Shown here: positions 26,480-50,870 of the stretch, one piece after another
Numbering within the stretch: position 1 is the stretch's first letter
Layout of the letters: each line of letters opens with the position of its first letter
Assembly: GCA_002286715.1 (NCBI GenBank)
Contig: NSJX01000045.1
Span: forward strand, 62,001 to 126,000
Direction: 5' to 3'
From: Dentipellis sp. KUC8613
Taxonomy: Eukaryota; Basidiomycota; Agaricomycetes; Russulales; Hericiaceae
Length of the DNA: 64,000 nt
Translations under genes and position numbers: made by a program
The notes under the pieces: generated by a model
What the model was told of the DNA's origin: nothing
Database searches by the model: none
The model's input: the letters and a program-made list of their open reading frames with translations, nothing else

Positions 26480-26800
26480 CCGTAGAACACGACGCCTCCC
26501 AGTCTCGTGCTATGGATCCTCCATGACACGCAAGGGAAAGGAACCGCTTGCGGAACTCTACACCAGAAAGCCGTTGCACTCAAACGCCCGGCAGACAATC
26601 TTAGGACCTCGTCTTTCATTGAGTCTGATGACGAGGAAAAGAACGGGATGCTTAAGAAGGGGTGGGGATATTTTGCTCGGGATAGTTTGAGTATCAGGGC
26701 GTCTGCGAAGAGGATAAAGCTGCTGGCAGCAGCACTTACTTACGACTGGGAGCGAACCGAGTCAGCCGACGCGGAAAACAAGGTATCGTCTTCAAGTTAG
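26480..26800 (+). pseudogene. Family A remnant A1
   Basis: This holds only the C-terminal core of family A (SSMTRKGKEPLAELYTRKPL), then a frame change and RPADNLRTSSFIESDDEEKN, LKKGWGYFARDSLSIRASAK. The N-terminal two thirds, the promoter and the last exon are absent. It lies just after the lectin gene and marks the left edge of the array. It points towards B1, as in the other units. Confidence 0.8.
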
Positions 26801-27022
26801 CTGATGGTACGCAGAAGATTGTGAAAATACTGGTTTTCTGATATCCTCAGCACCGGACATAGTTTCCAATCACGGCCACGACATCACGCGCAATTGGTAT
26901 AAAATCAAGTGCGAACTTGCGTTGAGTCAATCATATTCAAGAAGTTTGGATGAGTGCTTGGGTAAGGATGATACACTTCACCGGGGGATATTAGCACCCT
27001 CCATGCGTCTTGCATGTTATTG

Positions 27023-27895
27023 CTAGACGCGACCATTGGATTGTACACCGCGTCCCGCCTGCCGCTCTGCTTCCCGATACTGACGAACCCAATTATAATG
27101 ATGGTTTTTTGCCTCTACAAACACGCGGATCTTCGATTGAATCCGCTCCAGACTCTCGCGATAACGCGGAATATTTGGATACGTCGACACCCTTTGTAGG
27201 TAGAAAGCTTCGAATTCTATATATCTCGATGACACTCCGCCCCCTGTCAGTGATGGGAAAGACGCACCAGCTAGTTCCTCCTCTATTTCTCGGTCCTCGG
27301 CCTCGTTGATTTGCAGGAACTTCTGCAAACGGGCATCCCGTTCCCGAGACTCCACAATTTGTTGAATTCGTAGAGATTTCAAATCTTCGTTCTTGACAGC
27401 TTCATGCCTCAATGCCGCAACATCCTGATGAGGGTGGCCTACGAAGGACATTGGTTCTTCTCGGGATCTTCGTCTCCGAGGCAAGCCGTCGACACGGTTT
27501 TCGATCATAGGCTTCTGATCCAGATGTTGCATTGTCGTGGACGACATAAAGGTATGTGCTTGAGCGAGACCATCCACACCTGTGTAGTTAGAAGGATGAA
27601 ATGGACTTCGCAAATTCTGGTCAGTTGGGGTATGCATGAGCGAAGCCTGTGTATTCGGAGGAAGACTGGCATGGCTTTGATAAGGTGATGAAATCTGCAT
27701 AGAAGACATTCCCGAGTATATGGCAGGAGGGAGCTCAGGACTCCCGACAGAGGCTACTCGCTGGGAGTTCTGCTCCTGCGTGTACGGAGAAGCGTCGACG
27801 TGACCGGCATGCGGTGTTCCAATATACATCGACGATATATCGGAGTAAGGGGAACGACTCGGAGGTAATCGTCCTGGGGAGTTCGAATAGGCCAT
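27023..27895 (-). CDS. Family B protein B1 (unknown function)
   Basis: 273 aa after removing an intron at 27217-27267. It starts MAYSNSPGRLPPSRSPYSDI. The duplicated family motif appears as SDISSMYIGTPHAGHVDASP and YSGMSSMQISSPYQSHASLP. A SUMO-type site AVKNEDLK follows. The usual acidic block ending in QAVLDE is replaced by a charged helix (ESRERDARLQKFLQINEAED). The last exon has the family position STYPNIPRYRESLERIQ, then a basic C-terminus. It is one of the two most divergent B members. No known domain is recognised. It is transcribed away from B2. Confidence 0.72.
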   Translation of the reverse strand: MAYSNSPGRLPPSRSPYSDISSMYIGTPHAGHVDASPYTQEQNSQRVASVGSPELPPAIYSGMSSMQISSPYQSHASLPPNTQASLMHTPTDQNLRSPFHPSNYTGVDGLAQAHTFMSSTTMQHLDQKPMIENRVDGLPRRRRSREEPMSFVGHPHQDVAALRHEAVKNEDLKSLRIQQIVESRERDARLQKFLQINEAEDREIEEELAGASFPSLTGGGVSSRYIEFEAFYLQRVSTYPNIPRYRESLERIQSKIRVFVEAKNHHYNWVRQYREAERQAGRGVQSNGRV

Positions 27896-28001
27896 GACGT
27901 GCGCAGCACAAGTTGACAGCTAGCTGCAGCAGCCGTCAGCAACGATACTACCTTCGGATAGGTTGTCTACACATACCTGAAAACGAGGTGGAAAAGACGA
28001 T

Positions 28002-28070
28002 AATTACCATGATGTGCCGTTACACTTTTAACTCTCCTAGAAATCGCAGTCGCACCGTACAGAGAGTAAT
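28002..28070 (-). promoter_or_regulatory. B1 core promoter and leader
   Basis: Read on the minus strand it has CTCTCTGTACGGTGCGA, then GTTAAAAG, then CATCATG joined to GTAATTATC. The first bases of the TTGTTCTCT box are altered here. Confidence 0.55.
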
Positions 28071-28533
28071 GCGTCTACAAGGCGAGCCGAGTTGGGAACC
28101 GTCGCAATGCAAGGAGTGTTCCGGGGAGAGTCTAGCGACACGAAGGGAACAAGGCGAGCCAGTGTAGGCCAGTTAATGGAGAGACGCATTACTTATGGTC
28201 GTTTGAATCATTCTGTGCGGGGAGCCTTCCGGTCGGCCGGCCCGGCCGCAATAACGTGGAGGAGTCGATCTGTTCATGTCGACAATCATCTGCCAATTTC
28301 TGGGTCTCCTTGGGACCTTTGGCTACGCCTCTGGGTCTCTTGCTATACCAGATCAATTTCTCAACACTCGGTCAGGCTTCATGGAGGATAATTGTCGCTA
28401 TACTTTGATACAGGCGCTTAAATAAATGCTGACTTCCCACTCTGGCTCGCCTTGTTGCCTTCACGCCGCTAGATTTACCACGGAAGTCTTCTCGCGTTAC
28501 GACGGCTTCCAATTCGGGTCGCCTTTATATGCA

Positions 28534-28600
28534 TTGTTCTCTGTATGGGGTGATTGCAAGTCCAGGACAGGTTAAAAGCATAGCAGCGCATCATGGTGAA
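28534..28600 (+). promoter_or_regulatory. B2 core promoter and leader
   Basis: TTGTTCTCTGTATGG at 28534-28548, GGTTAAAAGC about 20 bp later, then CATCATG followed at once by GTGAATATC, a likely 5' splice site. The same arrangement stands before the other B genes. Confidence 0.6.
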
Positions 28601-28705
28601 TATCGTGTTTCTACCTCTTCCTTAGGTACGTGTTCTCAGGTTGCCTGGGGCCGTGTTGTTGCTCACAGTTGTGGCAGTTGCCCGCCAGTTCGTGCTGCGC
28701 ACATC

Positions 28706-29554
28706 ATGGCCTATCCAAACTCGCCTGAAGGACTGCCCCGTACTCTTTATACCGACATGTCGTCATTGCATATCGCTTCACCGCGTGCTGGCTATGCCGA
28801 TGGAAATCCGTACAAGCAGGAGCGATACGTCAAGCATTCTGACTTGAGTGCACGCCCACAGCTGCCTCCCGACCTGTACTCGGGAATGGCCTCGATGCAG
28901 ATTTCGTCGCCCTATCGGGGTCCTGCCATCCTTCCGTCAGGTGCCCAGTGCGCACTTGTCTCCCCTGTGGACCCACTGCAGGATTTCAGTAGACCTGGTC
29001 CTCAGTCCAGCTACACATATACGAGCATGCAGTGTTGTGGAAACAATGCCTTGGCTGCTGGGTGCGCACGCAGCCAGGATCAGAAGACGATGCTCGAAGG
29101 ACCGAAAGTAGAACATGCCAGTCGTCCGCTGCGTAGACGCGATCAGCAACCATCCTACAGCTTGAGGAAGTACTTACAAGATCAATCCGCCCCAACCAAC
29201 GATGCATACATGAAGACCGAGGACGAAGAAGAAGACTATGATTGGGGAGTCTCGTATCAGGAGCTCATGAACCTACCTAATAGTAGGCAAGCACTGTTGG
29301 AAAGAAAAGCCATGATGGATCGGGTGCATGAGAGGAAAATGGCTGGTCTGTCGCCACCGTTTTTCCAGTCATGTGGTCTGACTTTTCATTCTACAGATAT
29401 TGAGAAGGAGCTCGAAGCAGGAGTTGCAAGAGATCCAGGGCTACTTCCTCTCCTAGAGCACCATCGGTATTTGATGCGTTCTGGCGAGCAAGTGAAGCAA
29501 TTGCATCATGACATGATCATCCTGCGGGAGGATATCAAGAGTCTCAGACAGTGA
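28706..29554 (+). CDS. Family B protein B2 (unknown function)
   Basis: 265 aa with a 51-bp intron near 29346-29396. It starts MAYPNSPEGLPRTLYTDMSS and carries both repeats: LYTDMSSLHIASPRAGYADG and LYSGMASMQISSPYRGPAIL. The SUMO-type site is MKTEDEEEDYDW. The last exon, IEKELEAGVARDPGLLPLLE, keeps the helix but has RDPGLLP in place of the PNDP signature. It is the only B gene on the plus strand and converges on A2, so this unit is inverted relative to the rest. An overlapping frame (from about 28641) encodes a hydrophobic stretch, AVLLLTVVAVA; the MAYPN frame is preferred because it is open in all eight paralogs. Confidence 0.72.
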   Translation: MAYPNSPEGLPRTLYTDMSSLHIASPRAGYADGNPYKQERYVKHSDLSARPQLPPDLYSGMASMQISSPYRGPAILPSGAQCALVSPVDPLQDFSRPGPQSSYTYTSMQCCGNNALAAGCARSQDQKTMLEGPKVEHASRPLRRRDQQPSYSLRKYLQDQSAPTNDAYMKTEDEEEDYDWGVSYQELMNLPNSRQALLERKAMMDRVHERKMAGLSPPFFQSCGLTFHSTDIEKELEAGVARDPGLLPLLEHHRYLMRSGEQVKQLHHDMIILREDIKSLRQ

Positions 29555-29685
29555 GAGACGGTATAGCACCAAATGTACGGTATCTGGCTTCCGAATCAAT
29601 TGATCAAATTTTCTCCGCCATGAAATGCTATGCTATACGTGCCAAGAAGTTATCTAGACTGCGGTACAAAGCAGCGATGTTCGTC

Positions 29686-31459
29686 TCAACGAGTCTGTGT
29701 ATCGAAATACAAAGCCGTACTGTTTCTGAGGCACCCGCTTCTATACTTTTCTTCTTCGACCAGTCCTTTTATGTACGATTTTACCTCTGGGATATTGTGT
29801 GGATAAGAAAGTAGTTCTGCGCCTGAAAAAGCCCGGCATCAGCATTGAACCAGCCTAGCCTATGGCTACCGTTAAGAGCTTACTCTTTTCTATGATATCG
29901 ACATCGGTTGGTTCATTTTCGTAGACTTCCTGCTGGGTATACGCTTTTGCTTTCATTCTTTTTACTGCCCTTCGGATTCTTCGGCATTCTAGAGTCGTGT
30001 ATCTCTGCCCTTCCCCGCTGTGATCTTGTTCTCTGCTGTTCTCACACTCGTGATCTGACTGGATCAGAGAAGAAGGTCGAGAATTCTCCGCTGGACGCTT
30101 GAACTGCAATGGTTTTCTGGTGAATAACGGTTTGAGCGGCTCCTTTCCCTTGCGCGTCCTCACGATATGTGCAGGCGGCTGGACGGCCGAGTCTTGTGAG
30201 CCACATGAAGGCTCTGCTCCTGGCGATACAACTTGAGACGCTCGGGACGGACGCGCACGGCTGTCCTCGGCAGTAGCTGGCTCTGAGTACACTCGTAGAT
30301 CATGTGCAAACGAACTTGAGCCCATTTGATGAGCGACACCCGAAGGCAGAACCGCATGCGCGCGAGAAGGATGTTTTATAGTCGAAGGTGGCACCGCGTG
30401 AGATACCCTCCTTGGCCTAAAAGAGGCCGCTGCGGTATGGCTTGCTGAGGGATTAGATACCTGCTGGACAGAGTTCGAACGGGATCTTCCCGTAGCTGGG
30501 CGATGGCTCGGCCCCGGCGGAGGGTCCATAGCACGCTGGTGTCGCGGAGGCTGCAAGCGAGCTCCATCAGATGGGGCGAAGGGGTAGTCTGCTGGTGGTG
30601 CGAGGCCGCTGGCATACTGTTGGTAGGAGGCGTGTCCGGTGGTCATGGTAGGAAACGTCCATTCAAAGTTTAGCTCAGGACGGATCTGAACTGCAGTGGA
30701 AGACGACATGATAGGGTGCGAGCTCTGACCGCGATGAGAAGAAGCGGAAGCTGCTGCGAAATGAACTTGCAGAGAAGAAGAGGAAATCGGAGTAGGGTTA
30801 GCGCCAGCAACTGAACCGTGGTGATGGGCTATATGTTCGCTGTGGCGCGAAGAGCCGGCCGCGAGTGTCGATGAGGCATGTATACCAGTGTCATATACAC
30901 CATGCTGAGGGCGCGCAGCGCCGTACGGTTGCCGAGATGAGGAATCTGCGGTAGCATGACCAACAGAACCAGCAGGCTCTGATCCATTATAGGCCGTATC
31001 ATTACTGGAGGTGTAGGAAGGCGCTTCTTGCACCTGGCACGAAGCGCGGTTATAATGATTAGTACTCGTAGTGTTCATAGTGTTCGTATTCGTGGTGTTC
31101 GTAACGCCCCTGGCAGACGCGGTACCATAGTGTTGGCCGTGGTATGTTGTGTCTCTCGAACCGGCCACCGATGAATATGCGGGCTGCATGGTGGGTTGAG
31201 TTAGATACGCATAGCTTGCTGGTGCGTTATACTGACGCTGCGCCGAAGGATTGGCAGGCAGACTTCAAGAATTTTAAGAATATACCCCAGCATAGAAATT
31301 TGAGAAGACTCACGTCGGTAGGTTTCGCACGGGGGTAGCACGACGGGGACCCTCATGATCAACATAAGGGAGGGACAGCGTCACAGACGGTGCAGCTAGA
31401 TCGGCGTCGTTGTGGTAAGGTTTTCTCTTGGAATCGCGAGGCTTCGTGTTTTTTGACAT
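29686..31459 (-). CDS. Family A protein A2 (unknown function)
   Basis: 553 aa in three exons: 31314-31459, 29884-31262 and 29686-29822. It starts MSKNTKPRDSKRKPYHNDAD. The middle exon is rich in Ser, Thr, Pro, His and Asn, with an Asn/Thr tract (TNTTNTNTMNTTSTN) and the family block VQIRPELNFEWTFPTM. The conserved basic core is RTRKGKEPLKPLFTRKPLQF, then KRPAENSRPSS. The stretch after it is diverged compared with A3 and A6. The last exon, AELLSYPHNIPEVKSYIKGL, is a predicted helix. Exon phases equal those of A3 and A6. A basic nuclear-type protein is likely; nothing else is recognised. Confidence 0.7.
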
Positions 31460-31635
31460 CGGGATCGTGAGACGTAGAAGGGCAGTTAGAGAATTATTAC
31501 AAGCAGAAATCCTAGATAGTATAGCTTGTCGTATGAGGCGAGCCAGCGCCTGGGTATCGATTCTAGAAGCTAAAGTCGGAAGAATGGAGGGTGAGCTGGG
31601 GGGGGTAAGGGAGAGCCTGAAGCCTGGATCGCAGG

Positions 31636-31692
31636 ATTAAATACGTATCGGGAACGGGCACTCTTCCCGCTTCAGAGCCACATAATACTGAG
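31636..31692 (-). promoter_or_regulatory. A2 core promoter
   Basis: Read on the minus strand: CAGTATTATGTGGCTCTGAA, then ATACGTATTTAATCC, then GCGATCCAGGCTTCAGG. A3 and A6 have the same three blocks at the same spacing. Confidence 0.6.
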
Positions 31693-32462
31693 CATCGTTA
31701 TTGTGAGCGCGACACGAAGAGGGTGACAACGAAATCATAAGGAGACAATTGGGCGGCGAGACCTAGGGAGGTAGATTTCCGACCCCCGGGAAGGCAGTGA
31801 GAGAGAGCTCTTGACGTGCCTCGGCAGCTGTATTTTCACAATTGAGGCAACGGGAGAGCATCGATACAGATCTATAGACCAGGACGCATGTCGTCGAGAT
31901 GTTCGAATTCTATAAGGTCCGTGACGGCCTCGGGACCTGCACGTCACAACAATTAGACCAGCGCCTTTTCGAGCGCAGGTCCTATCTTTTCGGGTTTGTA
32001 AAGTGAAGCGATAAGAGTCTCATCCCTTGCGAGCCCTATGGATAACATCTATGGGAGTAATGGTCAATACTGACGGCCTGTGTCTGCGTGGGTAATGCAT
32101 GAGCGATTCTTGACAAAAGACCGGTGAATACACGACTCACCATTGTGGCCCTCATTTTTGAAGGAAATATGCACATATATTTTGCCTGAATCAACGAATT
32201 TATTGGCGGTTAGAGTGATGGAGTGGCAATGAAGAGATGATGTTCAAGCCTGAGTATGTCCATCGGAGTCACCGTCTGCGACGGTTGCCCCCCGGGCCGG
32301 GAAAAGGGACGGCCCGGCCCAAGTTATTGCTTGCCTCCGACGTCCATCGACTTTCAAAAACTTGAAAAAGCTCTCGCAACGAGATTGCCTTCCACAAGAC
32401 ACGACTCCTATCCTCATCGTTATGAGATTGAACCCATCCATATACAGTGTTGACGATATCAG
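31693..32462. other. Intergenic spacer between A2 and RIT1
   Basis: No coding frame of note and no family A or B sequence is seen. A GC-rich CCCGGGCCGGG-like patch lies near 32290-32320. Confidence 0.4.
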
Positions 32463-34283: not shown

Positions 34284-34589
34284 ACGAATATGAAGCAAGC
34301 AGCTTCTTTCAATCACATCTCGAAATTCTGGAGGGGCGCCTACAATGCCATCGTATAGTCAGTTCCATTGAATTCAACAAAACGGACATTCTGATTGTCC
34401 TTGCGCCCTTCGCTACCGTTATCGATGCGGTAGTCTCACATCACACTATATCGTGGTATTGTTTACTCGACATGCTTCGAGCCGTCATGATCAGAGCCAT
34501 CGATTCATGACGACTGTTTGACCTTGTAGGTCCTGTTTCTGTTGACATTCGAAGAAGCGCCGGTCTAATTGTTTCGTCACGCAGGTCCC

Positions 34590-35097
34590 GAGGTCATACC
34601 GAATCTTCTTTAAACATATTGATGACATGTGTCCCGGTCCACAGACCGAGATTGACGCTCGCCCACTCTGTCAATTGTGTCTCCATAATTGGCGAGGTAC
34701 GGTCGGAGCTCTTCTCACTGCCTCCCCGGATTTTGGAACTATTCACGAAAACCCCTCCATAGGTCTCTATGCCCAATTGTCTCTTACGGCCTTGTTGCCG
34801 TCCTCTTCGTATCGCACTCTTTTCAATTGTGCACACTCAGTGTTGCTCATGATTGTGCAGTCAGTATTGTGTAGCCATGAAGCGGGGAAGAGAGCTGCCT
34901 CTGGTACGTATATAATCTCGCGATCCAAGCTTCAGGCTCCCTCATTTCCTACCCCGTCCTCCATTCTCCTGTCCACCTAGTCTCTAGCATCGATACCCAG
35001 GCGCTGGTCCGCCATAGACGACAAGTTATATTATCGACGTTTCCCGCATTCTAATTATCCGTTCATCATCCTCTACGTCTACCAGGCACGCTACGTG
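34590..35097 (+). repeat. Duplicated upstream block of A3 (matches 45385-45862)
   Basis: The 500 bp before A3 are similar along their whole length to the 480 bp before A6, including non-coding sequence well above the core promoter. The A gene and its upstream region were therefore duplicated together. Confidence 0.75.
34862..34930 (+). promoter_or_regulatory. A3 core promoter with TATA box
   Basis: CAGTATTGTGTAGCCATGAA is followed by GTACGTATATAAT (34904-34916) and GCGATCCAAGCTTCAGG. The TATA-like box is about 185 bp before the start codon. Confidence 0.65.
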
Positions 35098-36839
35098 ATG
35101 CCTCCTCGCGCTTCGAAGTCGAAACCAGAGTCGAAATCAGCTTACTACGCCGACGCCGATCTGGTAGCACCGTCTATGACGCCATCTTACCCTTATGCTG
35201 ATCGCGAGAGGAGTGTCCATGCTTCGCCTGTGCATGACCATCCAACGTGGGTCCTCCCAATCTGCTATACCGGGATGTGACACTCAACTCCTTGAAGTGC
35301 ACCTGTCAATCCTCCCGTGCGGCACCAGTACAACACGCCTGCGAATTATGCTGCGCCCACACATTCGGCTAGACAACCCCAGTATCCCGCGACGGCTGGT
35401 CCCAGGGACACGACATACCAAAATCAGCACCATACTAGCTCATATACCAGGGGTGTCACGAACCATACGACTGCCACCACGACGACTATCACGAACACTA
35501 CGAATACTACAAGTACTAATCACCATCAAGGACGTCATGCTTCGCGTCAGGTGCAGGAAGCACCCTCTTACCAACCTACTAATATTACCATCTACAATGG
35601 CTCGGAACCCGCTGATTCCTCTGACCATGGTGCTGCGGCTTCATATGAGCGGCAGCATGGCGCCGCTGGAGCTCGACTTGGAGCGCCTGGCATCGATTCA
35701 AACACCGCGTTGACTCAGGCGGCCGCCTCTTCGCGTTATGCTGCACATGCGACGCATTATCCCGGCTATGTTACTCGTACCAACCCCTCGCCGGCTCCCT
35801 CTTCTCTTCAGGTTCACGCGACAGCGAGGACTCCCGCGTCTTCCCATTGTGAGCCGAACTCTGCAGCCCTCATCATACCTTCGTCAACGGCAATCCAGAT
35901 CCGTCCTGAGCTGAACTGTGAATGGACGTTCCCTTCTATGACGGCTAGACAGGCCTCCTACCAACAGCACCCCAACGATCTCGGACCACCGGCAGACTAC
36001 CCATCTTCGGGCACTCATATGCAACCTTCATTGCACTCGCGTGCCATGGGTCCTCCGCCTGCGCCAACTCAGCGTCCAACGGTCGGGCGGCCTCGCTCGC
36101 GTTCTGTTCAACAGGGCTCCATCCCTGCGGCGGGCCATCCTACTGCGCCGTCGCCAAGGTCAAGGAGGATATCTCACGCAGTTCCGCCAACGGCTGCAGG
36201 CCCTCCTTCATATGCTCAAGCTCCACCATCGTCTACTGCAACTCACCTGGTAGGCTCGACCTCGAGCGCGCACGCGGGAGCTTATCCTGCAGACCCGACC
36301 ACCAATGACCTCCAAGGCCTGTCTACCTCTCAGGCGCAGCGGCCGACTGCGGGTTCTTCAAGGACACGCAAAGGAAAAGAGCCGCTTTCGGAGCTTTTTA
36401 CTAGAAAGCCGCTGCAGTTCAAACGCCCGGCTGATAATTCTCGTCCTTCGTCTTTCATTGAGTCTGATGACGAAGGAAAGAATGGGGAGCTGAAGACGGG
36501 GTGGAGATATTCTGCCAGGGACAGTCTGAGTATCAGGACGTCTGTAAAGAGGATGAAGCCTGCGGTAGCTGAGAATGCGACATTGACTGACGCCGAAATC
36601 ATAGCAAAGGGTACGTCTTATACTGAATACGTAGGCGAGAACACACGCTGACCGTCTACTTTCTTTCAGGTGCGGATATGCTTTCTAATCCGGGGAGCAT
36701 TCCGGCAGTAAGAAAATCAGAAAAAGCGTCCAAAGCTACAGCACGACGCTTAGAAAGCCGCCTCCAGACAATGACTAAACTATACACGGACCTCCAGAAG
36801 AATGTGAGTACTAATTGCGGCGCGTTAGAGAGGGCATGA
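35098..36839 (+). CDS. Family A protein A3 (unknown function)
   Basis: 543 aa in three exons: 35098-35246, 35298-36610 and 36670-36839. It begins MPPRASKSKPESKSAYYADA. Exon 2 starts with the conserved APVNPPVRHQYNTPANYAAP, then a Thr/Asn tract, VQIRPELNCEWTFPSMTARQ and RRISHAVPPTAAGP. The core is SSRTRKGKEPLSELFTRKPL, QFKRPADNSRPSSFIESDDE and SIRTSVKRMKPA, a bipartite nuclear-signal-like cluster. Exon 3 is a charged helix (GADMLSNPGSIPAVRKSEKA). All three exons join in frame to one stop, and both introns recur in A2 and A6. It converges on B3, with 76 bp between the stops. Confidence 0.75.
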
Positions 36840-36915: not shown

Positions 36916-37790
36916 TCAACTTCTCTGGCAGCGTTGAGAATGCATCCCGCTATCTCTTCCAGACGTATACCATACTTGTCGCAGCATGTCGTTGCAAAGC
37001 TCCTTCGATTGTACTAGCATGCGTGCCAACGATCGGTTCCGCCTGAGATGTTCGATCAGAAGCGGGTCATTCGGACGTTCTGCGAGCTCCCTCTGAAGTT
37101 CTTCCTCATCCTCTGAGTATATAGGTCAGAGAGCAGGCACATCCAGGCAACTGACGACATACCCATGATAGCTCTCTCAGCTGATTCATCGCGGGCGTTC
37201 GCTTCGTCCAAGACCGCCTGTAAACCGAGTCGTGATGATTGAGGAAATTCAAGGTCAATAGTGTCCATATAACGCGGCTCTGCGTCCTCAGTCTTGATAA
37301 CCATGTCCTTGTTATCTCCCGTGATACCTGGCGGCATCTCCCTGAGATTAAACATCGACGTGTGGTCTCGTCTTTGTGACGAGCGGTCAGCCTGTTCCAT
37401 CACCAACTGCTCAACTGGCATCTTGTAGTCCTGCTGTAGGACACGATTTGACGTATTCCCATGCCCATGGTGAGAATGATGCGTGTTCCAGTGATTCGAA
37501 TGGTAAACTAGTTCGCTAGATTTCCGTTCGGTTGTGTGGTGCATGGGCGCCTTCGGGTCACTGGCATGCGAGGGAAGCCGTGTGTAGTCGGAATATGGCG
37601 ATGAAATTCGCATAGAGGACATTCCCGAGTACAGGTGGGAGGGAAGGTCTAGACGTTGGGTGTACGGTGCCTGCGTGTGCGGAGAAACGTCGACGTGGTC
37701 AGCACGCGGGGATGCAATAGACATCGATTCAGACGACGGGTCGGTGTATGGGGAACGAGACAATCGTCCAGGGATGTTCGGGTAGACCAT
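36916..37790 (-). CDS. Family B protein B3 (unknown function)
   Basis: 274 aa with one 50-bp intron. It starts MVYPNIPGRLSRSPYTDPSS. The second repeat is LYSGMSSMRISSPYSDYTRL; the first is reduced to SESMSIASPRADHVDVSPHT. The central part has a His/Asn-rich stretch (HHSHHGHGNTSN). The SUMO-type site VIKTEDAEP is followed by DLEFPQSSRLGLQAVLDEAN. Exon 2 carries ELAERPNDPLLIEHLRRNR. It is closest to B6, sharing YKMPVEQLVMEQADRSSQ and REMPPGITGDNKD. Confidence 0.75.
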
Positions 37791-38284: not shown

Positions 38285-39113
38285 CTGCTTGCTCCTTTAC
38301 AGATTTTACCATCTGCTCCCCAGGCGTCGCTCAGTTACTGGCAGGCCTTGCTCCCGTTCTGCCACCAAGGATTTGTTCCTGGCACGGGTCGTCCGACTAC
38401 ATCATCTCCGTGGCCGAGACTATTATCTCTTGCAGCTCCGCAAACGACTGCTGGCCTCGCTTTGTACGTACCCATTGGATCCACCGTCATTCGTCGCTAC
38501 TCAGCAGGAGGCTTCGACGCCGACTGCGTACTCGAGAGCCGAACCCGTGAACCCGACGACCAGTAACTTTGCAGGTCCAATAGCCACCTTCGGGTTCTTC
38601 AATGTCGCGCAAGGAATAGGGACCGCTCACGGAGCTCTACACCAGAGAGCCGTTGCAGTTCAAATGACCGGCAGCTGATGATTCTCAATCCTTCATCTTT
38701 CACCGAGTCTAGTGAAGAGAACGGGAAGCTCAAGAAGGGGCGGAGGTCTTCTGCGCGGGACAATCTGAGCATCAGCAGTTCTGCGAATGGGCTGAAGTCT
38801 GCCGTCTCTATGATAGAGAATGCCACATTGACGGATACTGAAAGGTGAGGTCTCAGACTTCAAATTAATAGTATGGATGATGTATCATTAGTTTCAGGTC
38901 CTAGGTGGGGATATTCTTGCTGGTCCATGCGACAAAATCAGGCTGAATAGTCGCATTGAAGCCCTCACACGCAGAGGACAAATCGCTGAAGACGAGCTTG
39001 GTGTACTTTCGAGCGCATATGCTCAAGCGCGGAGGCAAGTGCGTAGCGTCAGAGGCGACGCGAGCAGTAGATATAATGCGCATTCAATCCACCGGTCTTT
39101 AACTGCGGACTAA
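38285..39113 (+). pseudogene. Family A remnant A4
   Basis: The sequence corresponds to the second half of exon 2 and to exon 3 of family A. The core (GPLTELYTREPLQFK) has stops and frame changes. The last exon is still open: GGDILAGPCDKIRLNSRIEA, then LTRRGQIAEDELGVLSSAYA. The promoter, exon 1 and the first half of exon 2 are missing. It points at B4 in the usual convergent arrangement. Confidence 0.75.
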
Positions 39114-39139
39114 TCTGAATGCATGGGTATGCACATGTC

Positions 39140-40016
39140 TCAATGTCCTCGGCGACGTGCTCTTTTCTCTTTGTCTTTCTCTCTCCACTGCCATTCCTGT
39201 GTCAACACGTCGCGAATGACCGCTCTACCATGCTCGATCCGATCCAGTGAGACCTGATGCTCCTCTAAGCATTTGAGTAACGCTGGATCGTTCGGACGCT
39301 CAGCCAGCATTGTTTGAAGAAGAGCCCCGTGCCCTGTAAACGTGTGTCACATGAAGTGTTTCTTCTGGTGAAAACAACGCACTAGTTATGCACTCATCCC
39401 CCTCTTGATCACGGGCCCGTTTTTCGTCCAAAACGGCCTGCAACCCTATTCGAGAAGATTCAGGAAAATGGAAGTCAAACCAGTCGATCTCCTCAGGCTC
39501 TGTTTCTTCGCTCTTAACGAAGGCGAGGCTGCTTGCTGTAGTCTTGCCTTGCAATATATTACCTACCGCAGAGGCTGGCTGATGAGTGCCCTTCCGCGAC
39601 GATCGGCCGGTGGCCTCTGCTTTCGTCGCTTTCGTCGTGAGCTCGCGATACTGATAATATGTATTCCGGGCCGGTATGGGAATATACTCGTTGTATGGTT
39701 TATGAGTGTCCATGTGGCTCGACGGATGGTATGTTCCGCTAGCTTTTTGGTCGATCGGAGCGTCTACGAACGGAGTCATTGCAACAGGAGAAAGGCTGGC
39801 GTGGGTTTGAAATGGCGATGACACACGCATTGAGGACATCCCGTTATAAAGGTCCGGAGGAAGGCTCATGCGGGGGCTTTCCGCACAAGTTGCGAGGTAT
39901 GGCGTCTGTGGGTACGGGGAAGCGTTTGCGCGGCCAGCACGCGGTGAGATATGCACTGATGACATGTCGGTGTATAGGTAGTGGGGGAGTCCTCCGGAAG
40001 AGTTTGGATAAGCCAT
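39140..40016 (-). CDS. Family B protein B4 (unknown function)
   Basis: 275 aa with a 49-bp intron. It starts MAYPNSSGGLPHYLYTDMSS. Repeats: LYTDMSSVHISPRAGRANAS and LYNGMSSMRVSSPFQTHASL. The site VKSEETEPEEIDWFDFHFPE is followed by SSRIGLQAVLDEKRARDQ. Exon 2 reads AERPNDPALLKCLEEHQVSL and ends with EWQWREKDKEKRARRRGH, a very basic tail shared with B5. It is closest to B5 over its whole length. Confidence 0.75.
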
Positions 40017-40789: not shown

Positions 40790-41475
40790 TCCATGCTCAC
40801 TTCAAGCTCTCAGTGACCGCCGCTCAGGGTGGTATCTTCGTCTCATGGCCAGAGCTCTGCCACCCAATTTCGTGCTGGCAGCCTCCTACTCATCGCTCAG
40901 TCGCTGGGAGGCCTTGCTCACGTCCCGTCCAACATGCATTTATTCCTGCCTCGAGTCATCCGACTACATCATCTGAATGTCCGTGGTCGAGAACATATAT
41001 CTTATGTAGCTCTGCAAACGATCGCGAGCCCCGCTTCGTACCACTGTCATCCATCGCGACTCACCAGGTGGGTTCGACCTCGACTGTGCACTCGAGAGCC
41101 AATCCTGTGGACCCAACAAACATTCACTGTCGAATGTCGTCTACCTCATGAGTGGACTTGCTACCTACAGGTTCATCAACGCCGCGCCAGGGATAGGAAA
41201 CGCACGCGGAGCTCGAACGCCCAGATGACGATTTTCGGCCCTCTTTCATCGAGTCCGATGACGAAAGGTGAAAATATTCTGTCCAGGAAAACTTGAATAT
41301 TGAAACACCTGCGAAGAGGATGAAGTCCATCGTCGTTGCGATAGAGAATGCCAAACTGACAGATGTCGGAATCGTAGAATCGTAGCGAGAGGTAAGGTCT
41401 CCCACTTGAAATTCGCTGTGCGGGACGAGCATTGACTTCCGGATCTCAGGCGCAGATATGACAATTGCTTAGAGC
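40790..41475 (+). pseudogene. Family A remnant A5
   Basis: It aligns with A3 from the middle of exon 2, for example ACTCACCAGGTGGGTTCGAC near 41060, through the core and into exon 3 (GADMTIA, then a stop). Stops and frame changes are frequent. No promoter and no N-terminal part is present. It is the most decayed of the remnants that still have exon 3 sequence. Confidence 0.7.
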
Positions 41476-41718: not shown

Positions 41719-42591
41719 TCAACGTCCCTGGCGGTGCGCTTTCTTCGCTCTCTCTTTCTCTCTCCACTGCCATTCATTTATCATCGCTTCGCGATTGAAA
41801 TCCCTGAAATATTGGAGCTCACGACTTGAGATCTGGTCTTGTTCTCGCCATTTGAGTAACGTTGGATCATTCGGACGCTTCTCAAGATATTTCTCAAGAG
41901 CGAGCGCATACTCTGAAAACATGCGTTACATCAAAAAATGAGACTTGTTCATTTGAATACACGCACCAGCTGCTTTCTTGTCATCTTCATCGTCACGGGC
42001 TTTCTTTTCGTCCAGAACTGCCTGCAGACCTCTCCGCGAAGATTCCGGAAAATTAATATCGAACCAGTCCATCTCGTCCGCTTCAATGTCCTCGGTCTTG
42101 ACACAGCCGATTTCTGTAGTGATAACTCGCGGCATATTTCCTATGACGGAGACTGGCTGACGTATGTCCTTCTGGGACGGACGGCTGGCGTCTTTCAGAG
42201 CTTTCATCATCGGCTCGCGATCCTGGCGTTGTGCAGCCTGACCCGACGTGGACTGATACTCATAGTACGGACTGTGCATGTCCATGTGGCCAGAGGGATA
42301 GTACTGTCCGTCAAATGTTTGCCCGACCGGAGGTTGTTCGAGCGTAGTCCGTCCGTCAAGAGGAAGGTTTGCTTGGCTCGGAAACGGCGACGAGACGTGC
42401 ATGGAAGACATCCCGTTATAAAGATCCGGAGGAAGGCTCATGCAGGGATTTTCCGCAGAACTTACGAGGTAAGGCATCTGCAGGTATGGAGAGGCATTCG
42501 CGCGGCCGGCGCGCGGTGAGGAGATATGCATTGATGACATGTCGGTGTAAAGGCCGTTGGGGAGTCCTCCGGGGGAGTTTGGATAAGCCAT
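41719..42591 (-). CDS. Family B protein B5 (unknown function)
   Basis: 272 aa with a 54-bp intron. It starts MAYPNSPGGLPNGLYTDMSS. The two repeats are LYTDMSSMHISSPRAGRANA and LYNGMSSMHVSSPFPSQANL, the clearest pair in the family. The site VKTEDIEADEMDWFDINFPE runs into SSRRGLQAVLDEKKARDDE. Exon 2 reads LEKRPNDPTLLKWREQDQI and ends in the basic EWQWREKERAKKAHRQGR. Confidence 0.75.
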
Positions 42592-42770: not shown

Positions 42771-43064
42771 GATGTATACAAGACGAGCCATACTGGGCCT
42801 CGTCGTGACGCAGCGGAACTTCTGTGGAACATCGAAATCTGAACGAGAACAAGGGAAGTGGAAGATTATGATGATAGGCGCCTGTTTGAAAACCCGCTAG
42901 ATTACCACCCCCGGTGGCGACTGACCTAATAAGCGTTGATTTCCAGATTTGTTGAAGCACTTGTAGGGGGCCGCGTTTCAGAAAGCCACGAGTATTCAGA
43001 GCTTGGGTCAATGCTACACGGTACACAACATCTTAAGATAACTGATCGCATACGAACGTCCACC

Positions 43065-43936
43065 TTAACTGCTCTGAGAAGCCCTCTCTTCATCTCTCCT
43101 GGATAGGTACAATTCAGCCTCCTCGAACTTGTTGTGAAGGTTCATCAATAGTTCATGTACGTGTAACCACTCCCGGTGCCGCCTGAAACGATCGATCAAC
43201 AGTGGGTCTTTCGGATGTTTTGCGAGCTGCCTTCGAAGCATTGCCTCGGTCTCTGTGTGCATAAGTCAGAAGGCAGGCACGTCCAGACCGCTGATGACAT
43301 ACCCGGTGCGGCACTCACAGCGTCTTTCTTTTCGTCCAAAATAGCCTTCAAATGGAGTCTTACAGATGGAGGATATTCACGGTTGAAGGCATCCATGTCA
43401 TCCCACTCCGAGTCCGAGTCCGCATCTTCAGCCCCAATCTGAATGTCCTTGTTGTCTCCCGTGATGTCTGGTTGCATCTCCCTGAGACCAAACATCGACA
43501 TATGGTCTCCTTGTGACGAGCGGTCAGCCCGCTCCATCACCGACTGCTCAACTGGCATCTTGTAGTCCCGCTGTAGGGCACGGCTTGATGTATTCACGTG
43601 CCCATGTTGGGAACGACGCATGTCCGTGTGGTTCGAAGGGTAGACTAGTTCACCGGTGCTCCGGTCGACGGTGTGGTGGATGGGCATCCTCAGGTCGTGC
43701 GGGGAAAGGCAAGTGTCGTTATAAGGTGATAGGTTCTGCGTGGAGGGCATCCCGGAGTACAGGTCGGAAGGAAGTCTACGACTTCCAATGGGGTCTGCAA
43801 GCTGGGTGTACGGTGCCTGCGTGTGCGGAGAAGTGTCGACATGGCCAGCACGCGGTGATGCAATAGACATCGATTTAGCAGACGTGTCGGTGTATGGGGA
43901 ACGAGGCAATCGTCCGGGGATGTTTGGGTAGGCCAT
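43065..43936 (-). CDS. Family B protein B6 (unknown function)
   Basis: 273 aa with a 50-bp intron. It starts MAYPNIPGRLPRSPYTDTSA. The second repeat is LYSGMPSTQNLSPYNDTCLS. The SUMO-type lysine is lost here (IQIGAEDADSDSEW), the only such case in the family. Exon 2 reads LAKHPKDPLLIDRFRRHREW and then a charged helix (LHNKFEEAELYLSRRDEER). No family A sequence is recognisable between B5 and B6, so this B gene has no convergent partner. Confidence 0.75.
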
Positions 43937-44040
43937 GATGTGCGCAGCACAGAAATGCCGTCAGCTACCACAACCGTGAGCAACAAAAAGATCTTCAGAC
44001 AGCTTAAGGACACATACCTCAGGAGGGTGGAAAGATAGTA

Positions 44041-44110
44041 CCAACCATGATGCGGAATGGGACTTTATATCCATCCTCGGATATTGCTGTTATGCCGAAC
44101 AGAGAACAAT
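44041..44110 (-). promoter_or_regulatory. B6 core promoter and leader
   Basis: On the minus strand: TTGTTCTCTGTTCGGCATAA, then GATATAAAG, a true TATA box here, then CATCATG followed by GTTGGTAC. Confidence 0.55.
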
Positions 44111-45384
44111 GTGCACAGAAGAACAAGGTTAGCTTGAACTATATCGGGCTCACCGTACCTCGACAAGGTATTCCCGCTACCCCTGTGGTAGTGGGTCTTA
44201 CCGGTCGTTTCTGTGACCACTTTTTGGCGGTAGATTTCAAGATCTGGTGGTGGCTGTGCACGAAATCCTAATTCGTCCATGGCTGCGCAGATTGTGTCAT
44301 CGTACGCGCGGCCCCCTCCACGGCCTCTCGTCTCTCGGTCGCTCATCATACTCATGACTGCCTCAATCTCTGGCTGTCGAACGTTCTCGAAGTACTAGTG
44401 TCCCCACAGCTTATACCATACAAGTTCCCTGCTTCGTCTAATTCTTATGGGGTGTGTGATAACGGTAGATAATGTAACCAAATGGCTATCGTCCCTTCAC
44501 GCTTGCGTGAACATCTACAATGCATGTGACCACGCTGGGAGTCAAATCGCCCACCGATACATACATTTACCTGCTGCACGGTCAACAAATGCGTTGCCAT
44601 CAACCATAGGGTAGCGGGGGTTTGCCACCTGAGTTCAGGTGGCCTTGGGGGCTTATCAATGGAGTATCCAGACATGACGAGAACAAGGTGAACCCGACTC
44701 GGAAACCTCGAGACGCCTACGGAGATTTTTAGCCGACAGAGCGTACAGAAATGAGAAGAGAGAACGCCAACACTTTTCCGAGGTTATAGCCAGAGGTTCT
44801 GTGCTCGAGTATACCCCAGTTGGTAGCTGAAGTAAACTCGAAGAAATTGTGAGGACTCGGGGCAGATCCTGTCATGACCGTGCCGCGCGAAGGGCCCACC
44901 GCCGTCGCCGCCGCCCTGGCCGTCACGGTAGCAGCCGCGGGCCGTCGCACGCCTCCTTCCTTGTAACACGCAGTAACTAAACTCTCATCTGCCCATACGA
45001 GATCTATTGCGTACAGTCGGTATGCAGAAATCTAGGGGGCCCGAACTTTACCATATATATGAAGGCATATCAACAAGGTCCACTCCCCAGCAGATCTAGA
45101 CGTGGCAGAATCAGATGAGAGCCTGAGCTCACGAACGTATGAGCTGTCGACGCCCTCCTCGTCTACAAGCACCTCGCTGGCTCATTCAACGCCTACCGTG
45201 CCTTAGCGACATCACCTTCACATATCTCCAATATCGGTATGCATTGTCGCAGTCCACGAGCGATCCTAGTAGAGTCCTAGCCGCTGCGTTCAGAACTGAG
45301 ATTCGCAATAGCTGTATGAAATTGTAGGTCGTCTCTTTCCCGCTCGAAGAATCGCGAGTCTAATTTTCTTGAGAAGCTTGTCCC
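44111..45384. other. Intergenic spacer between B6 and the A6 upstream block
   Basis: No family A or B sequence and no recognised gene. A TATA-like ACCATATATATGAAGG lies near 45050 with a short Ser/Thr-rich frame after it (ESDESLSSRTYELSTPSSST), too short to call. Confidence 0.4.
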
Positions 45385-45862
45385 GAGGCCAGATCGGAAG
45401 GATCAAAACGTCTGAACGACATGCGTCGCGTCCCGGTGCACAGATCCAGTTTGATGTCGCCCGTTCTGTTAATTGTGTCTCCAAGATGGCCGAGGTACGC
45501 TCGAAGTCTTCTGTCATCGCCTTCCCGAGCGTCATTTTCACAAAAGGCCCTCCCTAGGTCTGTCCGCCCAATTATCTCCTTCGACTTCGTTGTCGTCTTC
45601 TCGCATTCGACGTACTCACAATTGCGTGCAATCAGTATTGTGTAGCCATGAAGCGGGGAGAGAGCCCACCTCTGGTACGTATATAATGTCGCGATCCAAG
45701 CTTCAGGCTCTCTCATCCCATTCTCCTGTCTCCCTAGTCTCTAGTATCGATACCCAGGCGCTGGTCCGCCATAGACGACAAGCTATACTATCTACGATCC
45801 CCACATTCTAATTACTCTTTTATTATCTTCTACATTTGCCACGATCGACGCCACGCCACGCG
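45385..45862 (+). repeat. Duplicated upstream block of A6 (matches 34590-35097)
   Basis: Similarity with the A3 upstream block runs from about the CCCGGTGCACAGA segment to the start codon, with short indels. Confidence 0.75.
45633..45700 (+). promoter_or_regulatory. A6 core promoter with TATA box
   Basis: CAGTATTGTGTAGCCATGAA, then GTACGTATATAAT (45675-45687), then GCGATCCAAGCTTCAGG, about 175 bp before the start codon. Confidence 0.65.
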
Positions 45863-47492
45863 ATGCCTCCTCGCGCTTCAAAGTCAAAACCTTACTACAC
45901 CGATGCCGATCTGGCGGCACCGTCTATGACACTATCTTACCCTTATGCTGATCGTGAGAGCCGTGGTCGTGCTACGCCTGTAGGAGGCGAACCGATGTCG
46001 GTCTTCCCAATTCGCTATCCTGAGGTGTGACACTGATTTTCTCGAAGCGCGCCTATCAATCCTCCGGTGCAGCACCAGTACAATACCCCTGCGGATTATG
46101 CGCGGTCCACTGAAACGGCTAGACAATCTCAGTACGCAACGACGGGTGGTTCCAAAGATACGACATACCGCAATCATAACGCGCATGCTAGAGACGCTAC
46201 GAACCATACGACCACCACCACGACCGTGACGAACGCTACGGGCACTGCAAATTCTAATCATTATCAAGAGCGTCATGTTTCTCGCCAGGTGCGGGAAGCG
46301 CCTCTTCACCAACCTACTAGTACTCCCGTCTACGACGGCTCGGGACCCGCTGATGCCTCCGATCATGTTGCCGTGGCATCATATGAGCGCCAGTATGGCG
46401 TTTCTCGAACTCGCCATGGGGCACCTGGCACAGATGTATACACTTCGTCAACCCAGACGGCTGCTTCTTCGCGTCGTGGTTCGCGTGCATCCCATCAACC
46501 CGACTCCATTGCTCGGACTGACCCTCCACCGACCTCCTCTTCTCTCGGTCCTATCTCTTCGACAGTAGTCCAGATTCGTCCTGAGCTGAACTATGAATGG
46601 ACGTTCCCTTCTATGACTGCCGGGCAAGCCTCTTACCAACAGCATCCTAGCGATCTCGCGCCACCCGCAGACTACCCATCTTCAGGCACTCATACGCAAC
46701 CTCCGTCGCACACGCGTGCTATGGGGCCTCCACCTGTGCCGACTCAGCACCCAATTGTCGGGAGGCCTCGCTCCCACTCGGTCCAACAGGTGTCCAATTC
46801 AGCGGCGGGCCATCACGTTGCGTCGCCACCGAGGTCGAGGAGGATATCTCATGCTGTTCCGCCAACGACTGCAGATCTTCAGTCACATGCACGAACTCCG
46901 CCGTCATCCGACGCTACTCGCCGAATGCGCTCGAGCTCGACCGCACATGCCGGAGCCCATCTTGCGAGCCCGGCGTCTACGGGTCTTCAAGGCTCGTCTA
47001 CCTCGAAGACGCGCAAAGGAAAGGAACGGCTTGCGGAGCTTTACACCAGAGAGCCGCTGCAGTTCAAACTCCCAGCTGACAATTCTCGGCCTTCGTCTTT
47101 CATCGAGTCGGATGACGAGGGAAAGAATGGGGAACTGAAGAAGGGGTGGAGATATCTTGCTCGGGACAGTCGGAGCATCAGGAGTTCTGCAAAGAAGATG
47201 AAGCACTGTGTGGTGACTTCGACAGAGAGCACGGCATTGACGGATGCACAGATCATAGCAAAAGGTGAGACTTGAAAGATAAAATTCTTTGTGTGGAACG
47301 AACGTTGACTTTCTGATCCCAGGTGCCGATTTGCTTGCTAATCCATATGATATTCCTGTGGTGAAAAGACGCATCGAACGCCTTGAGAATAGAGCAAACC
47401 ATGCGCTATACAGATTTAACTCGTTGACGACAGCACATGACGCTGCACGGTGGCGCTTGAGCAGATGCAGGTGCGAAGCATCAGACATGTAA
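45863..47492 (+). CDS. Family A protein A6 (unknown function)
   Basis: 506 aa in three exons: 45863-45996, 46048-47264 and 47323-47492. It starts MPPRASKSKPYYTDADLAAP. Exon 2 carries APINPPVQHQYNTPADYARS, a Thr tract (NHTTTTTTVTNATGT), VQIRPELNYEWTFPSMTAGQ, RRISHAVPPTTADL and the core KTRKGKERLAELYTREPLQF. RPSSFIESDDEGKNGELKKG and SIRSSAKKMKHC follow. Exon 3 is a long charged helix (ADLLANPYDIPVVKRRIERL, ENRANHALYRFNSL). It is similar to A3 throughout and converges on B7, with about 100 bp between the stops. Confidence 0.75.
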
Positions 47493-47591
47493 GTGACAGA
47501 GTACACCATGTATTTATGTAGTGTCATGCGGAGCTATGAGACAAGTAATTCCGAAGTCTGATCGATATAAGCAGTTCTCATAAAACGTTGT

Positions 47592-48445
47592 TCAACCTCG
47601 CGAACGGCGAGGCAGTTCTTTCCGCTGGGCTCTCTCCTTCCAATACCATTCTTCCTTCAGTACAGAGTGATGATACTGCTTGCAGTATTCGAATTGACGA
47701 TTTAAGAATTGATGCCTCTCTAGACGTTGAAGAAGCGTTGGGTCGTTTGGACGTTCTTCGAGCAGTTTTCGAAGTGTTCCCTCGATCTCTGCGAATCATG
47801 TGTGAGGTACTAGCGTCCCTCATCATATTGACGCCAGTACAACGTACCAGCGGAGTCTCTATCGTCCTCCTCGTCATAGGCTCTCTGCTCGTCTAGAACT
47901 GCCTGCAAACCTTTCTGCGAAGATTGCGGATAAAAATACTCAAAAAGGTCCGTTGCCTGGGGTCCCACGTCCTCTGTCTTGATACGATCGGGTCTTGCCG
48001 CTGCGACAACGTTTTGAGGCGTCTTTACGGTCGCAGAGCCTGGTTGGCACCTTCGCGATGGTGGGACGACATCGTCTACTTTCGGTTCTTGCATTATGGA
48101 CTTGCAAATCTTGAACTGTGCAGACCGAGCGAGCGTCATAGGGTGATACTCGCAGTATGGATTATGAGGTTTCTGATCGACTGGAGCTTGTGTGGGTGTA
48201 GTCCATGCAACCGGAGGAAGGCCAGCATGGCTTTGGTAAGGCGATGAGACATGCATAGACGACATTCCATTATACAATTCGGGAGGGAGACTCCTGCGAG
48301 GGCTCCCAACAGCGTGTGTGTGGTCCGATGGGCGCGGATATGGAGATACCCTGGCGTGGCCAGCACGCGGCGAGGAGATCCGCAGCGACGACATGTCACG
48401 ATAAAGCCTGCTCGGTAGGTCTCCAGGAGTGTTCGGATATGCCAT
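47592..48445 (-). CDS. Family B protein B7 (unknown function)
   Basis: 264 aa with a 59-bp intron. It starts MAYPNTPGDLPSRLYRDMSS. Repeats: LYRDMSSLRISSPRAGHARV and LYNGMSSMHVSSPYQSHAGL. The site RIKTEDVGPQATDLFEYFYP leads to QSSQKGLQAVLDEQRAYDEE. Exon 2 reads LEERPNDPTLLQRLERHQFL and ends KERAQRKELPRRSRG. Its N-terminal half is closest to B8. Confidence 0.75.
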
Positions 48446-48552
48446 GCTCGACGGCCGTTGGGCTGCAGCAGACACAACTCAGAGTCAGAGGGCAGCTCCA
48501 TCATCCAGATTTAAACATGCTTACCTGAGAACGAGGTGGAAAAACGCGAATA

Positions 48553-48621
48553 CTTACCATGAGTCGACACGAACCTTTAAATCCGCCCTCTAGGGCTGCT
48601 CTCGCACCGTACAGAGAACAA
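48553..48621 (-). promoter_or_regulatory. B7 core promoter and leader
   Basis: On the minus strand: TTGTTCTCTGTACGGTGCGA, then GATTTAAAGG, then CTCATG followed by GTAAGTATTC. About 33 bp on, TCTCAG is followed at once by GTAAGCATG, a second donor-like site. Confidence 0.6.
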
Positions 48622-48959
48622 CACACAGACAAAGACAAGGCAAGCACCCAAGTAGGAAGTCGTAGGCGCCGGTTTTCCAAAATATGGATCTGATTTGGTG
48701 AACAGAGTTGGGTACCCGTAGAGAAAGGATTGGACAAGCGTGTTCGGCCATTGAAGTAACCCATGGACCCAGAACTTGAGGGTCCTCTCGTCGACGTCGT
48801 GCTGCGGTCTAACTTGTGCGCACAAACGCGACTTCTATAGAAGATCCAAGGGCGACAGCTCCAGAACAAGGCATGCCTGATCGGGCACTGCGAAGCACTG
48901 GAACAGCCGTGTTGGCATCGTTTTGAAGTTGGTGTCGGCAACTCGGTGCCCGGGAGATC

Positions 48960-49717
48960 TTGCTCGCGTTACATATGTTCAGCAGAGATCTATCCCCGCT
49001 GCGGGCCATTCTGCTACACCATCGCCAAGGATCGAGGAGGATATCTAGATCCGCCAGCAACTGCAGGTCTGCCTTAGTACAGCATGCAAGCTCTGCCATT
49101 ATCTGCTGCAACGCACCAGGTGGATTTGAGCTCGTCAGAATGCGCATGCGTAGGCCTCTCCTGCAGACCCGACAACCAGTGACCTCCAAGGCCCGTCTAC
49201 CTTGAAGACGCAGAAGCCACCTGCGGGAACCTCGAAGACGCGCAAAGGAAAGGAGCCGCTTGCAGAGCTTTGCGCCAGAGAGCCGCTGCAGTTCAAACGC
49301 CCAGCTGACAATTCTCGGCCTTCGTCTTTCATCAAGTCCGATGATGAGGGAAAGAATGGGGAACTGAAGAAGGGATGGAGATATCCTGCTCGAGACAGTC
49401 TGAGCATCAAAACGTCTGCAAAGAGGATGAAGCCTGCCGTTTGCACGGCAGAAAACGCAAAAATGACTGACACGGAGATCATAGCGAAAGGCAAGTTCTT
49501 CTCTTCTAGACGCAAGAAGTTCGGATGTTGATGGACTCCCTTCACAGGTGCCGAGATGCTTGCTGATCCATTCGAGATTCCGAACGTCAGAAAAATCATA
49601 AGCGATACGGAAAGCGGGGCCCGACGGGTGAGAGAGCAATATGACAGTTTGGCGCGTTGGTCTGTCGCGGCGCAGCAGCGTTTGGACAGATGTACTTGCC
49701 ATAGACTACAACGATGA
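48960..49717 (+). pseudogene. Family A remnant A7
   Basis: The first part (to about 49200) is decayed exon 2 sequence with stops. From 49202 the core is fully open: TSKTRKGKEPLAELCAREPL, QFKRPADNSRPSSFIKSDDE and SIKTSAKRMKPAVC. It then splices to an open last exon (GAEMLADPFEIPNVRKIISD, ARRVREQYDSLARW; stop 49715-49717). Exon 1 and the A promoter are missing. A shortened C-terminal product is conceivable but has no promoter in view. Confidence 0.72.
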
Positions 49718-49801
49718 GTACCGTATGTATTTAGCTTCGTCACACTCCATTACTGCTACAATGACAATGCCATGTTTCGTTGGCTGCCACAAATTCATGC
49801 C

Positions 49802-50685
49802 TTACACTCCTTGGTGATTACGGCGTCTACTTTCCCTTCGAGACCATTCGTACTCTGCTATACGACGAAGGAGTTGTTTCTGGTTCTGATGCACCTGCTT
49901 CAAGGTCCGTACTGCCTTGAGCTGCTTGAGATATGACGGGTTGTTCGGATGCTCCTCAAGCTGTCTCAGAAGTGTCTCCTCGCTCGCTGTGCAGATAAGT
50001 CAAATGACGTTCTACTTCGTGCAGGAATAGTAAACACACCTGCCAACCCCCTCTCACAGTCCTCGTCACGGGCATCATCTTCATCGAAAACCGCCTGCAA
50101 GCTTATTTGCGAAGACTGGGGATAGACTTGTTCGAGGAAATCCCAGTCTTCCGACTCCATGTTCTCCGTCTTGATGTGCCCGCGCATGTTTCCCTCAGTA
50201 GAACATTGTGGACTACTCTGGTAGGGAGACATCATAGGGCGTTCCTGACCATACTGCAGATGGCGGGTGTGTTCTGCATTCAGTCCTTCCGGAGCCACTT
50301 TGCAATCCCGGTCTTGTTGGGAAATCGGCACCGATGTGATAGCATAAGCCTGACTGTGGTTGTCGAGGCCCGGATACTTCGAGGTATGATGTGACCTGTC
50401 GAATTTCCGTTCGGCTAGAGTGTGCAAATGCGCAGTATGCGCGTCCGAAGACAGACTGGAGTGGCTCTGCCAGTGATAAGGCGAGGACACATGCATCGAC
50501 GACATTCCATTATACAGATCCGGAGGAAGGCTCCTACGAGGGCTCCCAACGGCGCGCGTGTTGTCCGATGGGTATGGGTAAGGAGATGCCCTGGCGTGGC
50601 TAGCACGCGGTGAGGCGATTCGCAACGACGACATGTCACGATAAAGGGCACTCGGCAAGCCTCCAGGGGTACTCGGGTATGCCAT
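49802..50685 (-). CDS. Family B protein B8 (unknown function)
   Basis: 276 aa with a 53-bp intron. It starts MAYPSTPGGLPSALYRDMSS. Repeats: LYRDMSSLRIASPRASHARA and LYNGMSSMHVSSPYHWQSHS. The site HIKTENMESEDWDFLEQVYP leads to QSSQISLQAVFDEDDARDED. Exon 2 reads LEEHPNNPSYLKQLKAVRTL and ends in the basic EWSRRESRRRNHQGV. It is the right-hand end of the array. Confidence 0.75.
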
Positions 50686-50800
50686 GGTGTGCGTGGCACC
50701 AGCCAGCCGTTGAGTTCCTGTAGTCGCGAACCAAGATCAGTGAACAGACATCTTCTAACTTCGCACGTAGTTACCTGAAAAAGAGGGTGAAAGATACGAT

Positions 50801-50870
50801 GTTTGCTATGAGTCAGGACAAGCCTTTAAACCTATCCTCCAGGACCGCTATCGCACCATATAGAGAACAA
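50801..50870 (-). promoter_or_regulatory. B8 core promoter and leader
   Basis: On the minus strand: TTGTTCTCTATATGGTGCGA, then GTTTAAAGG. The leader donor is lost here (CTCATAGCAAACATC in place of CATGGTAAGTATC). Confidence 0.55.

Follow-up and report, generated by a model that had tools for sequence, protein, structure and literature searches.

What are the two gene families, A and B, that lie in repeated pairs along one stretch of the genome of Dentipellis sp. KUC8613 (Hericiaceae, Russulales), and do their products act together? The window (the whole stretch of DNA that was analyzed, 64,000 nucleotides) contains the array from about 26.5 to 50.7 kb, with the outermost family matches at positions 26508 and 50685. 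The features are listed in Table 1. The usual unit is an A gene on the plus strand facing a B gene on the minus strand, and it is inverted in A2/B2. B6 is solitary, with no A match within 42800-45300. The first-pass annotation had described the same orientations, the inverted unit and the lone B6, and all were confirmed.

It had also counted seven A loci. A2, A3, and A6 are intact genes. A1, A4, A5, and A7 proved to be 5'-truncated remnants, and three of these four (A4, A5, and A7) contain in-frame stops. Intact A/B pairs are therefore limited to A2/B2, A3/B3, and A6/B7, in which the stop codons are 76-131 nt apart. A debris adjoins B1, B4, B5, and B8, and five of the eight B genes lack an intact A neighbor. 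B is intact at 8/8 loci versus 3/7 for A. B is the consistently kept gene of the array.

Table 1. Features of the A/B array, with positions in the window
Feature	Position	Strand	Description
A1 remnant	26514..26731	+	Match to A3 residues 402-474 only
B1	27023..27895	-	273 aa, 2 exons, phase-1 intron; matches deposited P0012 exactly
B2	28706..29554	+	265 aa, 2 exons, phase-1 intron; deposited P0014 (211 aa) is spliced differently
A2	29686..31459	-	553 aa, 3 exons, intact; 131 nt between its stop codon and that of B2
A3	35098..36839	+	543 aa, 3 exons, intact; gap of 76 nt to B3 end
B3	36916..37790	-	274 aa, 2 exons; matches deposited P0011 exactly
A4 remnant	38319..38842	+	Starts at about A3 residue 306; in-frame stop
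B4	39140..40016	-	275 aa, 2 exons; matches deposited P0003 exactly
A5 remnant	40885..41460	+	Starts at about A3 residue 306; in-frame stops
B5	41719..42591	-	272 aa, 2 exons; matches deposited P0001 exactly; structure modeled
B6	43065..43936	-	273 aa, 2 exons
A6	45863..47492	+	506 aa, 3 exons, intact; same as deposited P0005; 99 nt from B7 end; structure predicted
B7	47592..48445	-	264 aa, 2 exons; deposited P0013 (271 aa) uses another donor and frame
A7 remnant	48951..49714	+	Matches A3 from about residue 313-320 to the A end; stops in exon-2 part
B8	49802..50685	-	276 aa, 2 exons

Eleven spliced genes were rebuilt in the array (the eight B genes with A2, A3, and A6). Each B locus splices into a frame of 264-276 aa across one phase-1 intron of 49-59 nt. 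The three A genes splice into 553, 543, and 506 aa, with a first intron of 51 nt in phase 2 and a second of 58-61 nt in phase 1. These models reproduce the product lengths and the uniform intron phases of the earlier reading. Five of the 11 (B1, B3, B4, B5, and A6) are identical to deposited KUC8613 proteins. The coding frames are open, and each other frame of those 11 coding sequences contains 4 to 31 stops.

The dN/dS ratio was below 1 in all eight paralogue pairs computed. It was 0.28-0.59 by NG86 and 0.46-0.76 by YN00 for B (five pairs), and 0.24-0.38 and 0.33-0.55, respectively, for A (three pairs). Within B, residues 1-75 carry the strongest constraint (NG86, 0.11-0.43 for the same five pairs). 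In some pairs the middle of B evolves almost neutrally (B4/B5, dN 0.47 and dS 0.49), and dS was saturated in the C-terminal comparison of B7 and B8. The constraint on both families, as estimated from these ratios, is moderate. Open frames beside 4-31 stops in the others, with dN/dS below 1 in 8/8 pairs, form a pattern beyond chance. The array genes look real and under selection, as the first-pass annotation had claimed, and the paralogue check that it had proposed agrees, the five B pairs included.

All family matches in the KUC8613 genome (34.1 Mb, 171 contigs) lie in the array. At least 8 of 9 scored candidates matched in the B protein search, and at least 10 of 12 matched in the A search. 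The divergent D. fragilis queries g852 (B) and g853 (A) gave at least eight matches each, again in the array only, with no paralogue beyond it. Among about 5.8 billion proteins, the families were found only in KUC8613 and D. fragilis. One search matched 4 of 489 candidates. An A search matched 6 of 7991 and a B search 9 of 7993, both confined to the candidates with the most words in common. Both families are likely absent from Hericium. The array appears to be restricted to Dentipellis and to comprise two fast-evolving protein families. No paper on the array genes was recognized by title or abstract among the literature matches listed; in the papers that name both Dentipellis and KUC8613, neither name stands in a title or abstract, and neither EVG20 nor DENSPDRAFT was found among the matches listed.

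Pfam assigned no domain to either family, in agreement with the absence of a recognized domain noted earlier. B5 and A3 (as a 532-aa form) matched no family at an E value of 1 or better. The nine B-family proteins gave one weak match in one member (Vasculin, E 0.12). Among the six A-family proteins, DUF5089 (E 0.025) and MccV (E 0.3) each matched one member. These three matches are weak and confined to single members, and they were regarded as chance. The repeated units and truncated copies could be read as mobile-element remains or domesticated transposon genes. This reading is disfavored and highly improbable. All genome matches are at one locus, the introns have fixed phases, and Pfam gave neither a transposase nor a reverse transcriptase nor any other family. 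A match to a transposon protein, which had been named in advance as evidence against the array, did not appear by Pfam in B5, A3, or the nine B-family and six A-family proteins.

Structures were predicted for B5 and A6 from alignments of nine B-family and six A-family proteins taken from the search. These include the alternative models P0013 and P0014 and omit our own spliced models of B2, B6, B7, B8, A2, and A3. The B5 model (nine sequences) is disordered over roughly its first 165 residues, followed by helices at 189-220 and 225-269. The pLDDT blocks of these helices are mostly above 90, and 84 residues reach 90 or more. The last-exon segment of B is predicted to be a helical hairpin, which is confident in the B5 model. 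The best structural neighbors of B5 have the type III secretion needle fold, an uncertain match. The A6 model (six sequences) has a mean pLDDT of 42.6. It contains helices at 416-434, 444-456, and 460-505, with block means of 67-89 for the last two, and the remainder is mostly of low confidence or disordered. A is predicted to be mostly disordered with a long helix in its last-exon segment.

The N terminus of B contains two copies of a motif like Y-x-x-M-S-S-M-x-I/V-S-S-P. None of 500 shuffles reached the score of this internal repeat in 8 of 11 proteins, and 1 to 8 of 500 did so in the other 3. B also has a [hydrophobic]-K-x-E motif at one alignment column in 9/11 proteins, with the E in 11/11. 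Motifs of this type can be SUMO sites. An acidic, aromatic stretch adjoins the K-x-E spot in the alignment. For the alignments and trees, the B proteins of D. fragilis were trimmed so as to begin at MAYPN. Neither family contains a strongly hydrophobic stretch by 19-residue Kyte-Doolittle means in the 11 window models. The highest mean, 0.89, makes these proteins unlikely candidates for membrane insertion.

A phase-1 intron precedes the last exon in A as in B. This exon encodes a proline-bounded turn before or between the helices, PNDP-like in 9/11 B proteins and PxxIP in 4/7 A proteins (A2, A3, A6, and g10265). D. fragilis g2936 was left out of the A C-terminal alignment because its model lacks the last exon. 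The similar last exons prompted the idea of a common origin of A and B. It is unsupported: hhalign gave a probability of 0.05% for the C termini and 0.33% for the whole proteins, with the helix-turn of one family aligned to that of the other.

Homeodomain mating-type pairs of Agaricomycetes are repeated pairs of two different genes, divergently oriented, with diverged paralogues. The array resembles them as repeated pairs of two different genes with diverged paralogues. It differs in that A and B have no homeodomain and are convergent. Mating or development regulators in a layout comparable to multicopy homeodomain pairs are very unlikely here. The paired two-family array and the acidic, aromatic stretch of B beside K-x-E speak for them, but no homeobox was found by Pfam in B5, A3, the nine B-family proteins or the six A-family proteins, and no other DNA-binding domain was assigned. 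Homeobox_KN matches are on contigs C88 and C95 and STE3 matches are on C1, with none on C112. A mating-type link was sought and not found, as the homeobox and STE3 matches are on other contigs of the genome.

The remnants bear on how the array grew. The match to A3 begins at about residue 306 in A4 and A5, at about 313-320 in A7 and at 402 in A1; these points are limits of local alignments and are hence approximate. The common start of A4, A5, and A7 (about 306-320) makes them look like A 3' ends carried along with B. It suggests that the amplified unit was B plus the A 3' end. In self-comparison, A4/B4 resembles A5/B5 and A6/B7 resembles A7/B8 in unit layout, and the spacing of A4/B4 and A5/B5 is alike. 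This likeness indicates that units were duplicated whole or in part. Duplication of the convergent units as units is supported by the sequence at least for A4/B4-A5/B5 and A6/B7-A7/B8.

In the B tree, B4 and B5 group with D. fragilis g10266 (support, 99/95), B3 groups with B6 (100/100), and B7 groups with B8 (93/94). Among the A sequences, A3 and A6 pair in the tree (100/98) and are then joined by g2936 and g10265 (93/95), and A2 pairs with D. fragilis g2938 (84/88). The groupings of B4/B5 with g10266 and of A3/A6 with g2936/g10265 imply that the lineages, and several of the duplications, are older than the species split. Distances in the A and B trees were not significantly correlated across the seven units compared, with B6 left out (exact Mantel, Pearson r 0.25, p 0.22; Spearman p 0.21).

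Three D. fragilis contigs contain both families. A g853 and B g852 are on a contig of 82491 bases, A g10265 and B g10266 are on one of 7173 bases, and A g2936 and g2938 are with B g2934 on one of 47036 bases. Their consecutive or near-consecutive numbers and equal contig sizes indicate that A and B are neighbors on all three. The first-pass annotation had argued that the two families were kept side by side and that their products work together. Within the KUC8613 genome the first part is overstated, given three intact A of seven and the Mantel result. It regains support from the D. fragilis numbering (g852/g853 and g10265/g10266). That the products work together is plausible.

We infer a partnership of A and B. 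The best-supported mechanism, at somewhat less than an even chance, is that they are intracellular partner proteins joined by their C-terminal helices, with B diversifying. A would be a large disordered scaffold or regulator that acts inside the cell, and B would be its adaptor. The N-terminal repeat motif of B may dock a further protein. The array would grow by unequal duplication of units. Most A copies would be truncated and B copies would be retained and diversify, leaving a few A partners to be shared among several B variants. The neighboring A and B gene numbers on the three D. fragilis contigs and the close spacing of the intact pairs (76-131 nt, stop to stop) favor the partnership. The uncorrelated A and B distances, the five of eight B genes without an intact A and the low mean pLDDT of the A6 model, built from six sequences, count against it, and the hhalign null for A-B homology was also counted on that side.

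A close rival, possible but not probable, is that A and B are functionally unrelated neighbors from young families, caught in one tandem duplication unit. B would be selected and amplified, and A would be a passenger that by chance survives in some units. This is consistent with the asymmetry of 8/8 intact B and 3/7 intact A, the lone B6 and the Mantel result. Remnants that start near the same A residue, as A4, A5, and A7 do, are expected if B was copied with the A 3' end. Against a passenger A are the constraint on the three intact A genes, noted above, and the consecutive or near-consecutive A/B numbers on three D. fragilis contigs.

Asymmetric decay in multicopy, fast-evolving, genus-restricted families also fits an array for non-self recognition or killer-antidote function, in which a harmful A decays freely and a protective B is kept. 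Such an array would explain why A is lost and B retained. We consider it unlikely. Neither family has a hydrophobic stretch or an enzyme or pore domain, and the intact A coding sequences are constrained rather than relaxed. A precedent is the wtf family of fission yeast (Schizosaccharomyces), which includes drivers and suppressors within one multicopy family (PMC7032740). The array is like wtf in that it is fungal and multicopy, some members being intact and others decayed. It is unlike wtf in having no hydrophobic stretch (maximum 0.89) and two separate families. In wtf, one gene makes both products, and the proteins have multiple hydrophobic membrane segments.

A hitherto undescribed kind of two-component recognition system is likewise improbable. 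In it, B variants that share the N-terminal double motif but have hairpins of their own might use matching C-terminal helices to compete for the few A partners or to neutralize them. Whether nuclei are compatible or survive after fusion or meiosis might then depend on how strains differ in alleles or copy number.

The array also resembles tandem arrays of orphan, genus-restricted families. A and B are multicopy, clustered, fast evolving, and without domains, and they were found only in two Dentipellis genomes. Unlike such arrays, they have two families per unit, placed tail to tail, and are, by gene number, neighbors in the second species too. Two undescribed, selected gene families are thereby added to the young genes of fungi, present in both Dentipellis genomes met. 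If A and B bind, the eight B variants and three A partners would be a natural set for the study of partner specificity and partner loss. If they do not bind, the array would be a clear case of apparent pairing made by the mode of segment duplication.

The approximately 550 bp upstream of two of the intact A genes (34514-35098 before A3, 45312-45863 before A6) are similar in the window self-comparison. The similarity is about 73%, over an alignment that extends into both genes. The upstream regions of paired B paralogues are likewise similar in this comparison. This likeness may reflect conserved promoters or possibly duplication alone.

The deposited D. fragilis A-family models P0009 (g10265) and P0010 (g2938) share a start at one internal methionine (MTTGQASYQQ). 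It lies upstream of the position where the 5'-truncated A remnants of KUC8613 begin. The internal start is either a prediction artefact or a short form of A.

Frames flanking the array on both sides were searched against Pfam, and 6 of the 10 given matched. The two stretches at the left end of the window are 85 to 95% identical in the self-comparison and are a recent segmental duplication surrounding an aspartyl-protease gene. Their frames look like fragments of an importin-beta-type protein.

Features flanking the A and B array (window positions)
Feature	Position	Remark	Source
Similar stretches	1003-4492 and 7783-12391	Partly inverted relative to one another	Window self-comparison
Run of N (masked)	about 5488-5900		
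Aspartyl protease, F-box-like, DnaJ	6650-23101	Upstream of array	Pfam
Kri1, ketopantoate hydroxymethyltransferase, DUF6589	51000-64000	Downstream of array	Pfam
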